DNA from: Methanoregula sp. PtaU1.Bin051
GTDB lineage: Archaea > Halobacteriota > Methanomicrobia > Methanomicrobiales > Methanospirillaceae
DNA length: 57,380 nucleotides
NCBI GenBank assembly: GCA_002067895.1
Contig: MVRE01000021.1
Coordinates: 1 to 57,380, forward strand
Direction: 5' to 3'
Of the stretch, positions 37,808 through 46,798 are shown piece by piece. Each line of letters starts with the position of its first letter. Positions within the stretch are counted from its first letter, which is position 1. Made by a program: the position numbers and the translations under genes. Below the pieces are notes generated by a model. It was given only the letters and a program-made list of their open reading frames with translations, did not search any database and had not been told where the DNA came from.

Positions 37808-38971
37808 TTAACGGGATGCGATGGTTTGCATGAGGGCCATGATCCCCGGCTTCATTGGCTTCCTTCCGGCTTTCTCGAACGGTGCCATCTCCATTGCCGG
37901 TCCCTCGAACATCTCCCGGTTGAGCCGGTCCGTCATCTCATCGAAGATCCTCTTGTAAGCAGTGCAGTTGCAGTCAACGCCCCGGTCGGGCCCGCCATTG
38001 GCGACAATGGCATTGTACGGGCAGCCGCCCCGGCAGTAACGGATATGGGCACAGGTTTTGCATGCAGTATCCACGTTCTTGGTGAACCGGTACATCCGCT
38101 CCCAGGCAGCTGTCTTCCGGATCTCGTCAAAGGACGGCCGGTCAGAAACATTCCCGTAACAATACTCCGGCATGCCGATGAAACGGTAGCAGGGGAAGAT
38201 ATCCCCGTCAGGGCCGATCGCAAACGTGCTGCCAACGCAGTCAACAAAAGTACAGACCGAGCCGTGCCGGGTGAACACGCACCTGAAGAGGTCGTTGATG
38301 TTCATGATCTCGATCTCTCCGAGGTGGATGAGGTACTGGTCGAGTAGGTAGACCAGAAGCTCTCCGTATTCCGCAGGATCGAGCGCCCACTGCCCCGGCT
38401 CATTGCTCTTCAGCGAGGGGAGCGCCGGGTGCAGTTTCATGGTGAATCCGTTCCGCAGGAAAAAGTCAAATATCTCCTCCTTTCGTTTCACGGACCGGGC
38501 GGTAAACGTGCAGATGAACCGGACATCCACACCATGTGCCCGTGCGATCCCGAATCCCTCCATCGTCTTCCTGAAGTACCCCGTTCCCCGCTGCGAATCG
38601 CAGATCTCCTCAGGCCCGTCGATAGATGACCCGACAGGGATGTGGTACTCTGTAAGGATGTTTGCTAGTTCCGGTGTCATGAGCCAGAGGTTGGACTGGA
38701 GGGCAAACTGCGGTTGCAGGTGCGACAAGCCCCCCGCAAGCAGCGGGAGCGCCTGCCGGTAATAGTCAGCACCGGCAAGGAGGGGTTCCCCCCCGTGGAA
38801 GGTAAAGGTAACCCGCTCATCCTCCCGGAACTCCCGCAGCCATTCCACCACGTCATTCACCGTGTCGATTGTCATGACCGGCGACCCCGGTTCCGAGCTC
38901 CAGCAGTAACTGCACCGGGCAGGGCAGCCCAGCGTGGGAATAAGCATGACATGGAACGGGGTCTTCATCAT
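37808..38971 (-). CDS. Radical SAM/SPASM protein, peptide-modifying type
   Basis: 387 residues. The core begins IPTLGCPARCSYCWSSEPG with C16, C20 and C23 for the AdoMet cluster, then FTFHGGEPLLAG. The C-terminus is a SPASM-type cysteine region: CVGSTFAIGPDGDIFPCYRF, then CKTCAHIRYCRGGCPYN and VDCNCTAYKR. This layout is that of enzymes that modify ribosomal peptides or mature sulfatases; I associate it with the methanogen peptide-modifying group (Mhun_1560-like). No short Cys-rich precursor was found within a few hundred bases. It is divergent from the mtr operon. Confidence 0.75.
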   Translation of the reverse strand: MMKTPFHVMLIPTLGCPARCSYCWSSEPGSPVMTIDTVNDVVEWLREFREDERVTFTFHGGEPLLAGADYYRQALPLLAGGLSHLQPQFALQSNLWLMTPELANILTEYHIPVGSSIDGPEEICDSQRGTGYFRKTMEGFGIARAHGVDVRFICTFTARSVKRKEEIFDFFLRNGFTMKLHPALPSLKSNEPGQWALDPAEYGELLVYLLDQYLIHLGEIEIMNINDLFRCVFTRHGSVCTFVDCVGSTFAIGPDGDIFPCYRFIGMPEYCYGNVSDRPSFDEIRKTAAWERMYRFTKNVDTACKTCAHIRYCRGGCPYNAIVANGGPDRGVDCNCTAYKRIFDEMTDRLNREMFEGPAMEMAPFEKAGRKPMKPGIMALMQTIASR

Positions 38972-39309: not shown

Positions 39310-40224
39310 ATGGAGAATATTGTATTTGGCATTGGAATTACTGCATTGACAGGAGCTCTTGCCACCGTAGCCGGAGCTGCGGAAGATACTGAGTCCAATA
39401 TCGGATCGCAGGGAGATCCGAACTCACAGGTCCAGCTCGCTCCGCAGATGGGTTTCCTGCACCGCATCTTCAATAAGGCGGTCGCCGGCGAACCACCGGC
39501 ATACGGGTTGTGGTGCTGTCTTGGCGCCGGACTTGCATGGGCTTTCATGGCGATGCAAATCAACGCGGTCCTCGCGATCGTTCTGGGCTGTGTTCTCGCA
39601 GTCTTTGTCCAGGGTGTTTACGCAACTACCGCGTATCTGGGTAGGCAGGCCAGCCTGAAAAAGTTCGGGCAGCCGATCTACGTAGACATCTTAAAGTCCA
39701 TGACCACGGTGACCATGGCACATGCCTTTGTCGCTATTTTCTGTACTGTAACCCTCTGTTTCCTGATCAACGCCGCGCTGGGACACCCGTTCCCGCTGCC
39801 GCTGCTTGGTCTCGTATGGGGTATTGCACTCGGTGCAGCAGGATCGGCTACAGGCAACCCGTACTATGGCAAGGAACGCCAGTACCAGAACCAGAAATTC
39901 GGTGCGGGCGTCCCGATCTCGGCGTCGGGCAACATTGTCCGCTATGCCGAAGCCGGCGAACGCAATTCGCTGGACAACGGGTTCTTCACCGCCAAGCTCG
40001 GTGGCCCGGCATCCGGTGTCTGTTTCGGCCTGATCGTCTTCCTCGAACTCTGGCGAACCGTTATCTTCGAGAAGATTGATTTCCCGGGTCTTGGTCCCGG
40101 CTGGTATGCAATTTTCGTCGGCATTCTTATGATCCTCGTATTTACGATAGCCGACCGGTATATCGAGACGTGGGCACGGAAGACCTACGGACCTTATGCC
40201 GAACCGAAGGAGGCATCCTCATGA
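39310..40224 (+). CDS. mtrE: Methyl-H4MPT:CoM methyltransferase subunit E
   Basis: 304 residues, integral membrane protein with about six helices (LWCCLGAGLAWAFMAMQI, AVLAIVLGCVLAVFVQG, MTTVTMAHAFVAIFCTV, GLVWGIALGAAGSATGN). With MtrC and MtrD it forms the sodium-pumping part of the Mtr complex. AGGGAGGAGG ribosome site before the ATG. The stop overlaps mtrD (ATGA). Confidence 0.97.
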   Translation: MENIVFGIGITALTGALATVAGAAEDTESNIGSQGDPNSQVQLAPQMGFLHRIFNKAVAGEPPAYGLWCCLGAGLAWAFMAMQINAVLAIVLGCVLAVFVQGVYATTAYLGRQASLKKFGQPIYVDILKSMTTVTMAHAFVAIFCTVTLCFLINAALGHPFPLPLLGLVWGIALGAAGSATGNPYYGKERQYQNQKFGAGVPISASGNIVRYAEAGERNSLDNGFFTAKLGGPASGVCFGLIVFLELWRTVIFEKIDFPGLGPGWYAIFVGILMILVFTIADRYIETWARKTYGPYAEPKEASS

Positions 40225-41054
40225 GCGCGGTCGCAGCAAAGCCGGCAGCCGGCGGGGCAATGAATCCAACGGCAATGGGCGTCGGTATCGTCATGCTGCT
40301 TATCCTGCTTGGGATATGCTGGTATGTCGCACCGGGGCTCGGTCTCATGGCACTGATAGGGATAATCATTGGCGGTGTCCTGATCGGGTTCGGTACCCAC
40401 TTCGTTCCGGTCGGCGGAGCGCCGGCCGCAATGGGGCAGGCTCCCGGTATCGCAACAGGCGTTGCGATGCTCGCGGCTGGTGCCGGTCTCGCTGGTCTCT
40501 TTGGTGGAGCATGGGCCGCTGAACAGGGAACTGTGATCGCAGTCGTTACCGGTGGAGTCGGTGGCGGCCTGATGATGGCGATCACCTGCATGATGGTCAA
40601 CTTCGTCTATGTCTTCGGCATGGGCATTCCTGCAGCATCGGGCAAAGTCAAGGCTGATCCCATCACAGGCGATACCCAGGCAGAATACAAGTCCCAAGGT
40701 ACTGAAGGACACGGGCTCCCGTTCGTCTCGTTTGTCGGTGGTGTCGTCGGAGGTATCCTTGGCGGGGCTGGAGGTACACTTATCTACCTGATGCTTCTTG
40801 ACCTGTACAAGGTTACACTGCCCACGATGATGAGTGCTACAGAGGCACAGATTATGCCGATCGCAGTCTCTGCTGCAGGTATGTTCGCTGTTGGCATGTT
40901 CCTCGTAAACGCCGTCCTGACTGCATACAACATTACAGGAACGATCGAGGGTCCCCACGATCCCAAGTTCAAGCGGTGGCCCCGGTCGGTCGTTGCTTCT
41001 GCTGTCGCATCTGCGCTCTGCGGAATTGTAGCGATCCTGATCGTGGTGATTTGA
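40221..41054 (+). CDS. mtrD: Methyl-H4MPT:CoM methyltransferase subunit D
   Basis: 277 residues from ATG 40221, which overlaps the mtrE stop by four bases; the longer frame upstream is rejected. About six helices (VGIVMLLILLGICWYVAPG, LMALIGIIIGGVLIGFG, ALCGIVAILIVVI at the end) plus a soluble loop with GDTQAEYKSQGTEGHGLPF. Membrane subunit of the sodium translocator. Confidence 0.97.
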   Translation: MSAVAAKPAAGGAMNPTAMGVGIVMLLILLGICWYVAPGLGLMALIGIIIGGVLIGFGTHFVPVGGAPAAMGQAPGIATGVAMLAAGAGLAGLFGGAWAAEQGTVIAVVTGGVGGGLMMAITCMMVNFVYVFGMGIPAASGKVKADPITGDTQAEYKSQGTEGHGLPFVSFVGGVVGGILGGAGGTLIYLMLLDLYKVTLPTMMSATEAQIMPIAVSAAGMFAVGMFLVNAVLTAYNITGTIEGPHDPKFKRWPRSVVASAVASALCGIVAILIVVI

Positions 41055-41063
41055 GGTGGAGAA

Positions 41064-41912
41064 ATGACCGTTAAAGTTGAAGTTGTAGAAGGTGGCGTCC
41101 CGCACACCAAGATCATGGCGGCAGGAATTATCGTCAGCCTTGTCTGTCTCTACCTGTCATACCTGAATACTATGACCGGAACCGAGATGTTCTCGTTCTT
41201 CGGAGGGCTTGCCGTTGTTGCAGCTCTCATCTGGGGAAGCCACACAATCAAGGTCCTGTGCAGTTACGGTATTGGTACCGGTGTACCTTCCGCGGGTATG
41301 ATCGCCTTCGGTTCCGGTGTGATCGCAATGCTGCTGGCAACCAAGTTCGGGCTTGCAGCCCCAATCGTTGCATTTGTTCTTGCGATCGTGGTGGGCCTGA
41401 TTCTCGGGTACCTTTCAAATGAGGTGCTCAATATGAAGATCCCGGCAATGGTCCAGTCGCTGACTGAACTTGCCGTTGTCGGTGCATTCACGCTTATGGG
41501 ATTTGCCGTCTTAATCAGCGGCAGTTTCACATTTACAGGACTCACGACCGGATCGATCACAATTCTCGGGGCAAGCCTGCCCAGCTACCAGGTATCCTTT
41601 ATTGGAGGGAGCCTGATCGCCGTAGCATTTATGCTCGGAGGAATCGCAATCCAGCATCCGTTCAACGCGTGCCTCGGGCCCGGCTGGACCCAGGACAGGA
41701 TGCTCATGCTCACCGCCGAATGTGGATTCCTTTCAATGATCGTCGCTGCAGTGATGTCGTTTGCCCTCATTACAACAGGGTCGGCACTGATATCGCTGAT
41801 TGTTGCAATCATAGGATGGATCTACACGTACAAGCAGTATTTCGCCCTGTCCAAGCGCGATGCTGCAGACTGGCTCGATGCAAAACCGATTCCTGATTTG
41901 GAGGGACACTGA
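41064..41912 (+). CDS. mtrC: Methyl-H4MPT:CoM methyltransferase subunit C
   Basis: 282 residues, about eight membrane helices; GGHxxKIMAAGIIVSLVCLY-like N-terminus (PHTKIMAAGIIVSLVCL) and the family stretch GIAIQHPFNACLGPGWTQD. GGTGGAGAAATG gives a good ribosome site. Membrane subunit of the sodium translocator. Two bases separate its stop from mtrB's start. Confidence 0.97.
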   Translation: MTVKVEVVEGGVPHTKIMAAGIIVSLVCLYLSYLNTMTGTEMFSFFGGLAVVAALIWGSHTIKVLCSYGIGTGVPSAGMIAFGSGVIAMLLATKFGLAAPIVAFVLAIVVGLILGYLSNEVLNMKIPAMVQSLTELAVVGAFTLMGFAVLISGSFTFTGLTTGSITILGASLPSYQVSFIGGSLIAVAFMLGGIAIQHPFNACLGPGWTQDRMLMLTAECGFLSMIVAAVMSFALITTGSALISLIVAIIGWIYTYKQYFALSKRDAADWLDAKPIPDLEGH

Positions 41913-41913
41913 C

Positions 41914-42207
41914 ATGGCATACATTCAGGTACTTCCGGAATTCGGGCTCGTTGCCGACCCCATGGTCGGTGTTGTGACGAGCGCCGGTGAGTCGCTCTCA
42001 CCGATTGTCGAGAAAGTGACCGTTCTTGAAGCGGTAACCGATGACCTTATCAATATGCTGGCGGGAGATGGTAACTTCCTTGCCTCATTCCCGAACCGCG
42101 ACAAGTCGCTCAAGATCGCTGCTTCGATGAACTCGTTCTGGTACGGGCTTGCTGTCGGATTACTCATTGCAGGAGTCATTGCATTCCAGCTGATCAGGGT
42201 GAGTTAA
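41914..42207 (+). CDS. mtrB: Methyl-H4MPT:CoM methyltransferase subunit B
   Basis: 97 residues from ATG 41914 ([16 protein letters not shown]); a longer frame upstream overlaps mtrC and is rejected. One C-terminal helix ([20 protein letters not shown]) anchors a small soluble part in the membrane. Length and ends are typical of MtrB. mtrA begins 2 bases after its stop. Confidence 0.95.
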
Positions 42208-42208
42208 T

Positions 42209-42726
42209 ATGGCAGACAAGAAATCACCCGCAAGCGGATGGCCGCTCATCAAGGGAGACTTCATCTCCGGTGACCCCAACAGCCCGGTCGCTGTCGTGAC
42301 CATGGGCTCCCACCTCGACGAGAAAGGGATCTGCGATGCAGGCGCCGCACTCTGCGGTTCCTGTAAGACGGAAAACCTCGGTCTCGAAAAGGTTATCGCC
42401 AACGTGATCGCAAACCCCAACATCAGGTTCATCCTGTTTTGCGGTACTGAAGTCAAGGGCCACCTCTCCGGCCAGACCTTCGGCGCCCTCCACAAGAACG
42501 GCGTCAAGGATGGCAGGGTCGTCGGCGCTGAAGGCGCTATCCCCTTCATCGAGAACTTAAAAGACGACGCTATCAAGCGCTTCCAGGAGCAGGTCGAAGT
42601 CGTCAATATCATGGAGTCTGAAGACTTGGGCACCATCAAGGCCAAGATCAACGAACTCAAGGCCAAGGACCCCGGTGCCTTTGGTGAACCAATGGTCGTC
42701 GAGGTCAAGGAAGCTGCAGGTGGCGC
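42209..42726 (+). repeat. 518-base direct repeat, copy 1 (mtrA module)
   Basis: Read base by base, 42209-42726 is identical to 43149-43666, a spacing of 940 bases. The identity starts exactly at the ATG and ends at GGTGGCGC, after which the two genes diverge (T versus A). Flanks on both sides differ. Confidence 0.97.
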
Positions 42727-42931
42727 TGGCGAGGAGGCTGGCGGCGCGGTGCGCCCGCTTTCAGGCGAGGTTGCACTTATTACGGCCAGAATGAAGATCA
42801 TTGAGAAGATGGTGACCGACATCGGGTACCGCGATAAGTTCGCAGCCGGTGTGTATGCAGGAAAGATCGAGGGGCTCATGATTGGCCTTATTGTCTCGTT
42901 TGCCCTGCTTGGATTCCTGTGGTTGAGGTGA
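42209..42931 (+). CDS. mtrA: Methyl-H4MPT:CoM methyltransferase subunit A (corrinoid)
   Basis: 240 residues. Residues 1-172 are the cytoplasmic corrinoid domain; His85 in [12 protein letters not shown] matches the cobalt-ligating His of the family. Then an Ala/Gly/Glu linker, [20 protein letters not shown] and a C-terminal helix ([18 protein letters not shown]). It carries the methyl group between MtrH and coenzyme M. The first 518 bases are repeated exactly in the gene at 43149. Confidence 0.97.
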
Positions 42932-42936
42932 TCAAG

Positions 42937-43137
42937 ATGGCAGAAGAAGCAAAAGCTGCAGGACCAATAAGAATGGTCGCAATCGACAACATGGTTGAGA
43001 ACATCCGCTACAAGGCACAGATCCTGGCGCGGACCAACAAGCTGGACTCGAGCGTCTCCGCAAGAGGGGTCCTTGGGTTTACAATTGGCCTGTTAACCGC
43101 ATTCATCATGGTCTTGGTGCCGGTATTACTGGTGTGA
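42937..43137 (+). CDS. mtrF: Methyl-H4MPT:CoM methyltransferase subunit F
   Basis: 66 residues from ATG 42937 (MAEEAKAAGPIRMVAIDNM); the frame begins earlier but overlaps mtrA. One C-terminal helix (GFTIGLLTAFIMVLVPVLLV). Typical length and sequence (NMVENIRYKAQILARTNKL) of MtrF, a small structural membrane subunit. Confidence 0.95.
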   Translation: MAEEAKAAGPIRMVAIDNMVENIRYKAQILARTNKLDSSVSARGVLGFTIGLLTAFIMVLVPVLLV

Positions 43138-43148
43138 GGTGAAAAGAC

Positions 43149-43666
43149 ATGGCAGACAAGAAATCACCCGCAAGCGGATGGCCGCTCATCAAGGGAGACT
43201 TCATCTCCGGTGACCCCAACAGCCCGGTCGCTGTCGTGACCATGGGCTCCCACCTCGACGAGAAAGGGATCTGCGATGCAGGCGCCGCACTCTGCGGTTC
43301 CTGTAAGACGGAAAACCTCGGTCTCGAAAAGGTTATCGCCAACGTGATCGCAAACCCCAACATCAGGTTCATCCTGTTTTGCGGTACTGAAGTCAAGGGC
43401 CACCTCTCCGGCCAGACCTTCGGCGCCCTCCACAAGAACGGCGTCAAGGATGGCAGGGTCGTCGGCGCTGAAGGCGCTATCCCCTTCATCGAGAACTTAA
43501 AAGACGACGCTATCAAGCGCTTCCAGGAGCAGGTCGAAGTCGTCAATATCATGGAGTCTGAAGACTTGGGCACCATCAAGGCCAAGATCAACGAACTCAA
43601 GGCCAAGGACCCCGGTGCCTTTGGTGAACCAATGGTCGTCGAGGTCAAGGAAGCTGCAGGTGGCGC
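43149..43666 (+). repeat. 518-base direct repeat, copy 2 (mtrA module)
   Basis: Second copy of the mtrA module, identical to 42209-42726. Exact identity over more than 500 coding bases, third codon positions included, implies very recent duplication or continuing gene conversion. Confidence 0.97.
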
Positions 43667-43886
43667 AGGTGAAGTCGCTGCAGCTGGTGCGAACCCGCAG
43701 TTCCTCGAGATTGAGAAACGGCTCGACAAAATCGAGAAGAGACTCGAATTCGTGGATGCGGAAGTTGCCCAGCGCGTGGGCAGAAAGATTGGAAGGGATA
43801 TTGGTATCCTCTACGGCCTCGTCGCAGGACTGACCGTATTCGTGATGCTGCTCTTCCTGTTAGAGAAACTGTTGGTAATGGTGTAA
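43149..43886 (+). CDS. MtrA-MtrG fusion protein
   Basis: 245 residues. Residues 1-172 repeat the corrinoid domain of MtrA without a single base change, including cobalt-ligand His85. After a short [13 protein letters not shown] linker the protein becomes Mtr[41 protein letters not shown] and a membrane helix ([20 protein letters not shown]). No separate mtrG gene exists between mtrF and mtrH, so this is the only MtrG. If made as a fusion it would put a second corrinoid domain on each Mtr protomer. The ribosome site GAGGTGAAAAG precedes the ATG. The junction is at exactly the end of the repeat. Confidence 0.9.
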
Positions 43887-43903: not shown

Positions 43904-44941
43904 ATGTTCAGATTTGAAAAAGAGCAGAGTGTCTGGGATTTCAACGGCACCAAGATCGGGGGGCAGCCGGGGGAATACCCGACGGTATTGGCAGCCTCGA
44001 TCTTCTATAACAAGCACGAGATCGTAAAGGACGACCACAAGGGTGTCATCGACAAGGCAAAGGCCGAGGCACTCTGGAACCGCTGTCAGGAACTTTCCGA
44101 TGCAACCGGAATTCCGCACTTCATCCAGATCCTCGCGGAATTCCCCGAGGCATTCGAAAGCTACATCAGCTGGTTTGACAGTGTCGATAAGAAGACTGCA
44201 TTCCTGATGGATTCTTCAGTACCTGCAGCGCTAGCACATGCCTGCAAGTATGTGACCGAAGTCGGTCTTGCAAAGCGTGCAATCTACAACTCGATCAACG
44301 GTTCGATCCTTCCGGAGAACATCGAGGCCCTGAAGAACAGCGATGTCGATGCAGCAATCGTCCTCGCATTCAACCCCGCCGACCCCTCCGTTGCCGGCAG
44401 GGAGAAAGTGCTTGCCGAAGGCGGCGTCGCAGGACAGACGAAGGGGATGCTCCAGATCGCGGAAGAGTGCGGGATTACCCGCCCGATTCTCGACACTGCA
44501 GCTACCCCGCTCGGTCTCGGATCCGGCGGTGCATACCGTGAGATCCTTGCATGCAAGGCAATCCATGGTTACCCCACCGGTGGTGCATACCACAACATGA
44601 CCGTTGCCTGGACTTGGCTCAAGCGCTGGAAGGGGACCAGTAAGACCCCGTCGGTGCTGGCAGCGGGCTACAAAGGCAAGGACCTCCTCCTTGAGCAGAT
44701 GTCCCACCACTACCTTGGCGGTATCGAAGGCATCAAGCAGGCAGCATGGTCCGCACCCGATATCGGATGCAACATGATCGCGAGCACGCTCGGTGCCGAC
44801 CTGATTATGTACGGTCCAATCGAGAACGTCGAAGCAATGATCACGGCACAAGCATATACAGATATCACCATTCTTGAGGCAACCCGCCAGCTCGGGATCG
44901 AATGCAAGGCAGAGAGCCACCCCATCTTCAAACTTATCTGA
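43904..44941 (+). CDS. mtrH: Methyl-H4MPT:CoM methyltransferase subunit H
   Basis: 345 residues, soluble. TIM-barrel methyltransferase that moves the methyl group from methyl-H4MPT to the corrinoid of MtrA. Family stretches: GQPGEYPTVLAASIFYNKHE at the start, GTPILDTAATPLGLGSGGAY-like DTAATPLGLGSGGAYREILA, and TVAWTWLKRWKGT. GGAGGTG ribosome site before the ATG. Last gene of the operon. Confidence 0.97.
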   Translation: MFRFEKEQSVWDFNGTKIGGQPGEYPTVLAASIFYNKHEIVKDDHKGVIDKAKAEALWNRCQELSDATGIPHFIQILAEFPEAFESYISWFDSVDKKTAFLMDSSVPAALAHACKYVTEVGLAKRAIYNSINGSILPENIEALKNSDVDAAIVLAFNPADPSVAGREKVLAEGGVAGQTKGMLQIAEECGITRPILDTAATPLGLGSGGAYREILACKAIHGYPTGGAYHNMTVAWTWLKRWKGTSKTPSVLAAGYKGKDLLLEQMSHHYLGGIEGIKQAAWSAPDIGCNMIASTLGADLIMYGPIENVEAMITAQAYTDITILEATRQLGIECKAESHPIFKLI

Positions 44942-45825: not shown

Positions 45826-46305
45826 TCAAGCTTCGAGGGGACTGAAACCTTCCTTCTGGATCTTTCCGAATGTTCTGGTAATCTTGGGATCAAGGGCGCA
45901 GACCGGACACCGGTAATCATCAGGAAGATCCTCGAATCGCGTTCCGGCTTTTATCCCACGGTGGGGTTCACCCCGTGCTTCATCATAGACATAGCCGCAG
46001 AACGAACAGATATACCGTGTCGGGCGCCATTCATCAAAACCCCATTTGCCGACTCTTCCCTTGCCCTGAAAACCACAAAGCGGGCAGACATAGGTATCCG
46101 GAAGATCCTCAAACTCCGTGCCTGCAGGGATCCCGTTATGAGGTTCGCCGCGAAGTGGTGAATAGATATACCCGCATACACGGCATTTGTACCGTACGAC
46201 AGATACCGAAGCAGTCTTTTTCTTCGCCCTCCCTCCAGCCACCTTTCCCTTCATCGCATCAGCTTTTTTCTTAGGAGTTTTTGCTATCACTGCAACCTTT
46301 GCCAA
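45826..46305 (-). CDS. Double rubredoxin with basic N-terminal tail
   Basis: 159 residues. A Lys/Ala-rich tail (about 1-35, [12 protein letters not shown]) precedes two rubredoxin domains. The first has [17 protein letters not shown] and [12 protein letters not shown], the second [17 protein letters not shown] and [11 protein letters not shown], so each has the two CxxC pairs for one iron. It could carry electrons for oxygen or peroxide detoxification in this anaerobe. The basic tail is not usual for rubredoxins and might bind nucleic acid or a partner. The IS remnant lies just upstream. Confidence 0.9.
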
Positions 46306-46798
46306 AGTACACCTCCAGAATCATCATTTCCCCGGCTGTGAGCCGCAGGAAGATCCTGTACACGGATGATGGCGAGGCTTCCATAATATGCGTTGTGATA
46401 GGGACAATGTGGACCCCCCGGTCTTTCGTTTTTTTATAAAAGGAGAAACTAACGACTTTGTAGAATTCCTCAATGACAATCAGAACAGAAATCCCCTTCC
46501 TTAATCTTGAGAGGTTATAGAGGATCACCTTGATTTTGATTTCCTTGACCTGGAGTCGGTATTTTCTTGCTTTCAGGGATTCCCCGAACTTTCTTTTCAA
46601 GACGGAGAACACGGTTTCGACCTTATTCCGTTGATGGTATAGCTCCGGATCGAACAACACCCTCATTCTTCGGCGGTAATAACCGGAGAGTCGTTTTCGT
46701 TTTCGATCCCGGATCGGGATGAGCGAACAAGAGTTCAGCGTATCCCGGATCACACCGGAGGATAATTCAACAAACCTGATATACCGGTTCGCTGACAT
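46271..46798 (-). pseudogene. Transposase with internal deletion
   Basis: The frame starts with MSANRYIRFVELSSGV, the N-terminus also seen at 57162, then jumps directly to [19 protein letters not shown], matching the C-terminal half at 1-615. The junction lies at TGATCCGG, which occurs at both sites in the longer copies, so an 8-base microhomology deletion removed the middle, including the first catalytic acids. The last 60 residues beyond the IS end are host-derived and overlap the rubredoxin gene. Cannot be an active transposase. Confidence 0.8.

Follow-up and report, generated by a model that had tools for sequence, protein, structure and literature searches.

A stretch of 57,380 nucleotides from Methanoregula sp. 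PtaU1.Bin051 (termed ‘the window’ below) contains an operon for Mtr, the methyltransferase that pumps sodium in methanogenesis, in which the corrinoid domain of MtrA is encoded twice: once with its own membrane anchor, and once again, base for base, in fusion with MtrG. This arrangement raises the question of how the two copies came to be identical (by recent duplication, by gene conversion or by an error of assembly), as well as that of whether an Mtr trimer holds three corrinoid domains or six.

The mtr operon and its repeat

The genes on the forward strand follow the order E-D-C-B-A-F-(A-G)-H, as had been claimed in the preliminary description of this DNA; the assignments draw upon open reading frames and Pfam matches, with mtrD and mtrH identified by position and translation only. 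The features are as follows:

39310..40224, + strand: mtrE, which opens the mtr operon (open reading frame; Pfam MtrE, 423 bits)
40221..41054, + strand: mtrD (open reading frame; length and place in the operon; 40221 was chosen as the start)
41064..41912, + strand: mtrC (open reading frame; Pfam MtrC, 223 bits)
41914..42207, + strand: mtrB (Pfam MtrB, 104 bits)
42209..42931, + strand: mtrA-1, corrinoid domain with its own C-terminal membrane anchor (240 aa; Pfam MtrA, 276 bits; TIGR01111, 338 bits)
42209..42726, + strand: first copy of the repeat, matching 43149-43666 at all 518 nt (direct base comparison)
42937..43137, + strand: mtrF, a unique spacer that separates both repeat copies (Pfam MtrF, 84 bits)
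43149..43886, + strand: mtrA-2b, MtrA domain fused to MtrG (245 aa; Pfam MtrA, 276 bits, and MtrG, 81 bits)
43149..43666, + strand: second copy of the repeat and presumed tract of gene conversion, matching 42209-42726 at all 518 nt
43671..43883, + strand: residues 175-245 of the fusion protein, corresponding to MtrG (search of solved structures)
43904..44941, + strand: mtrH, which closes the operon (open reading frame; the same gene lies 3' of the fusion in related loci)

Direct base comparison established that the identity of mtrA and the fusion gene, previously described as extending over 518 nucleotides, is exact: it comprises precisely 518 bases counted from the ATG, with no matching base directly before the two start codons, and it ends at the start of the membrane anchors, past which the copies diverge. 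Pfam recognizes MtrA in both proteins with an equal score, and MtrG (residues 184-235) in the fusion protein only; together with NCBIfam, it places the MtrA domain and then MtrG within one open frame, located between mtrF and mtrH and downstream of a normal mtrA-1. The MtrG part is nearly complete, aligning from residue 4 of the MtrG chain of M. mazei in the solved complex 9qtq, and is joined through a short linker rich in Gly and Ala; the predicted mass of the fusion protein (26.1 kDa) agrees with the earlier guess of about 26 kDa. A search of the whole genome (2.31 Mb in 23 contigs) returned two matches to MtrA and a single match to MtrG, which is the fused one, and found no separate mtrG elsewhere, as the preliminary description had also held.

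In the window, the MtrA domain of the fusion is 100% identical to that of its own mtrA-1, versus 87.9% (75% at third positions) for the nearest MtrA among the other genomes compared, and these values exclude chance as the source of the identity. That the copies are exactly identical, rather than 99.x%, could be an effect of polishing or assembly.

Several further features of the window were recorded. A radical SAM protein with a SPASM domain adjoins the mtr operon on the opposite strand (37811-38971, - strand), a protein of 159 residues with two tandem rubredoxin domains is encoded at 45829-46305 (- strand), and at 46274-46798 (- strand) lies a short frame, probably a remnant, that encodes the C-terminal portion of a DDE transposase (PF01609 positions 118-200). 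A scan for promoters and terminators, the model of which is bacterial, returned nothing usable.

Distribution of the fusion and published counterparts

Relatives of the fusion were recovered at 78 loci, for which the named records all belong to Methanomicrobiales or are labelled just Euryarchaeota, and of which the nearest named to the window are from Methanoregula and other Methanomicrobiales. On every contig of sufficient length the genes read B-A-F-(A-G)-H, save in three metagenome genomes (L016, L025 and L028) that are considered below. A phylum sample of 197 genomes, 43 of them from the order of the window, was then used to delimit the fusion. MtrG is present in all 43 members of the order, its frame being long and fused or else truncated by a contig end or an N gap: most frames measure 226-319 aa, and four are shorter (119, 124, 168 and 201 aa), of which three adjoin the end of a contig and the fourth (from G062) is a fusion interrupted by a gap of 105 N inside its MtrA domain. 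In the other 69 genomes with MtrG, its frame measures 67-127 aa and is thus unfused, and no genome outside Methanomicrobiales in the sample carried the MtrA-G fusion. Because it is found in 43/43 genomes inside the order, and MtrG is unfused in the 69 others that have it, the fusion is an ordinal character and not a peculiarity of the window genome; a search for MtrA-MtrG fusions in related genomes, which the preliminary description had proposed, thus found them order-wide.

The fusion and its conversion, although presented as new in that description, are already known. In 2015, Wang et al. (G3, PMC4632066) described under the name ‘mtrA-2b’ an mtrA-G fusion of Methanomicrobiales, situated between mtrF and mtrH, explained its near identity to mtrA-1 as the result of long-lasting gene conversion, and reported mean identities for the order of 92.4% within species and 73.7% between species. 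A genome-wide survey in 2018 (PMC6053082) subsequently recovered mtrA-2b with a different framework; a search for later literature on mtrA-2 returned only these two studies. The locus of the window shares with the published mtrA-2b its position in the operon, the fusion of MtrA to MtrG, the loss of the MtrA anchor and the near-identical converted domain, and differs from it in no respect of kind; at 100% over 518 nt, above the order mean given in that paper, it is an extreme example of mtrA-2b.

Two other arrangements are informative for comparison. In mtrA-2a, an mtrA-F fusion of Methanococcales and Methanocella arvoryzae (PMC4632066), a second MtrA domain is likewise carried on another stalk helix and subject to gene conversion, but it is joined to MtrF, lies between mtrA-1 and mtrG, and is of independent origin according to the same authors. 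The canonical mtrEDCBAFGH operon, represented by the solved complexes of Methanothermobacter marburgensis (8q3v, PMC10998594) and Methanosarcina mazei (9qtq, PMC12774963), encodes the same subunits, with solved chains to which each half of the fusion can be aligned, but its MtrA is single and its MtrG a separate protein of 72-86 residues.

Gene conversion and its alternatives

Both copies were extracted from 55 loci, many of them in single-contig genomes, and statistics on identity and phylogeny were computed for 51 non-redundant genomes, with each pair compared over 495 nt. Within a genome, the two MtrA domains display a mean identity of 95.4% in DNA and 89.4% at third positions, versus 75.3% and 52.5%, respectively, for orthologs of different genomes; these figures, from a larger set, agree with those of PMC4632066. 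Six pairs are identical across all 495 nt, including those of the window and of the single-contig genome L098, and the pair in single-contig L091, of the same genus as the window, displays one difference. The closest relative of mtrA-1 is its own paralog in 45/51 genomes, and the two domains of one genome are sisters in 43/51; a tree of the anchors, by contrast, places all mtrA-1 anchors in one group and all MtrG tails in the other, with support of 1.0. Differences between copies of the same genome rise toward the 3' edge of the domain, from 1-4% over codons 1-160 to 6% over codons 161-170 and 44% over codons 171-180. A single old fusion followed by repeated overwriting of the domain fits both trees, and repeated fusion does not.

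The preliminary description had offered recent duplication and continuing gene conversion as the two readings of the exact identity, and had added an assembly chimera as an alternative. A recent copying of the mtrA domain onto mtrG in the lineage of the window would account for the identity over 518 nt, third positions included. However, the fusion is syntenic throughout the order, close relatives such as L091 carry the same fusion with a different sequence, and the MtrG tails are separate from all MtrA anchors, so that independent fusions at the same junction would be needed in every lineage; recent duplication, which both PMC4632066 and PMC6053082 also disfavour, is exceedingly improbable, and a strain-specific event was rejected on the strength of the order-wide synteny and the anchor tree. 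An assembly in which two copies were mis-joined, or one was duplicated by the assembler, might be suspected in a genome of 23 contigs, given that many metagenome contigs break within the repeat and that L016, L025 and L028 appear collapsed; yet artefacts of this repeat break or collapse the locus, whereas the window retains both copies with the unique mtrF between them, and the same architecture is present in single-contig genomes, among them L098 (100% identical domains over the compared region) and L091 (1/495 nt differing). This explanation, too, was rejected as very improbable.

The locus is therefore very probably an instance of mtrA-2b as published, in which an ancient, order-wide duplication and fusion was followed by recurrent gene conversion that has kept the MtrA domain nearly identical. 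Of the two readings, conversion is supported by the contrast of within- and between-genome identities, and recent duplication falls with the order-wide, syntenic fusion. In the proposed course of events, an ancient duplicate of the corrinoid domain of MtrA became attached to the N-terminal end of MtrG, a stalk subunit, and recurrent conversion between copies 940 bp apart in one operon has maintained the near identity of the domains; the sequence comparison shows that conversion does not pass the bounds of homology, which are the ATG on one side and the dissimilar anchors on the other. The result is a clear case of concerted evolution limited to one domain.

The process is episodic, rather than continuous everywhere, since several genomes depart from the sister pattern: in L060, L061 (both Methanomicrobium), L096, L104 and L064 the paralogs are not mutual closest relatives, and L053 represents a tie. 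In the first five, divergence has brought mtrA-1 and the fusion down to 79-83% identity, and sequences of another genome are nearer, or slightly nearer, to them than they are to each other. Such exceptional genomes hold copies without homogenization since their latest split from a relative, and the drifted pairs, as natural cases of stalled conversion, are useful for dating the process.

Metagenome assemblies often break at the mtrA repeat because it is about 500 bp long and nearly exact. In the metagenome genomes L016, L025 and L028, the mtrA-G fusion comes immediately after mtrB, no mtrA-1 anchor is present there, and no match to MtrF was found in any of the three genomes. The order B-(A-G)-H is the expected product of collapse, or of deletion, between identical domains; since mtrF is lost in all three, an assembly cause is likelier than a real deletion by recombination, and if collapse is responsible, mtrF will be wrongly recorded as missing when such genomes are annotated. 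L004 and L082 (apparently the same genome) and L087 have a fusion whose MtrA domain is interrupted near codon 134 or 123 and reads in two frames, most likely through assembly errors within the repeat. A truncation of mtrA-1 in L045 proved only apparent, and corresponds to a scaffold gap of 365 N.

A probable second corrinoid domain in the Mtr complex

The cobalt-ligating histidine is present in both copies in 55/55 pairs. In the window, both copies contain His85 within the motif KGHLS, which is the counterpart of the cobalt-ligating His84 of M. marburgensis, as well as CKTEN at position 52 and GAIPF at 109; roles of the TEN and GAIPF motifs have been described for MtrA (PMC4915002). In the structure of the M. 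marburgensis complex (PMC10998594), the MtrA anchor and MtrG lie side by side in the stalk with their N-termini in the cytoplasm, and the soluble domain of MtrA is disordered; because the two helices are adjacent and similarly oriented, a second MtrA domain mounted on MtrG is topologically possible, and with it the altered methyl-transfer stoichiometry that the preliminary description had suggested.

The fusion product would most likely replace plain MtrG in the complex; proteomic proof of the protein was not found in a literature search. Each protomer would then probably hold two corrinoid domains, the first on the MtrA anchor and the second on the neighbouring MtrG helix; this would give six per trimer instead of three, and thereby methyl carriers that are redundant or more densely placed between MtrH and the MtrCDE sodium pump. 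Alternatively, the fusion might serve as a dosage copy, from which a protease or an internal start frees MtrG and soluble MtrA, leaving the number of corrinoid domains in the complex at three per trimer. The short linker, rich in Gly and Ala, and an in-frame ATG at codon 162 (at 162 or 163 in most relatives, but not universally) are compatible with such release; near the junction, however, no other start codon is close enough to yield MtrG alone, ATG 162 encodes a residue within the MtrA domain, 17/55 fusions contain no ATG in this stretch, and the fusion frame is maintained across the order, which leaves the dosage copy an unlikely account.

For a trimer with six domains on two different anchors per protomer, it is conceivable, if rather doubtful, that one domain is methylated at MtrH at the same time that the other of the pair loses its methyl group at the sodium pump; were this alternation true, the coupling ratio or the rate would differ from that of the solved complexes with three domains.
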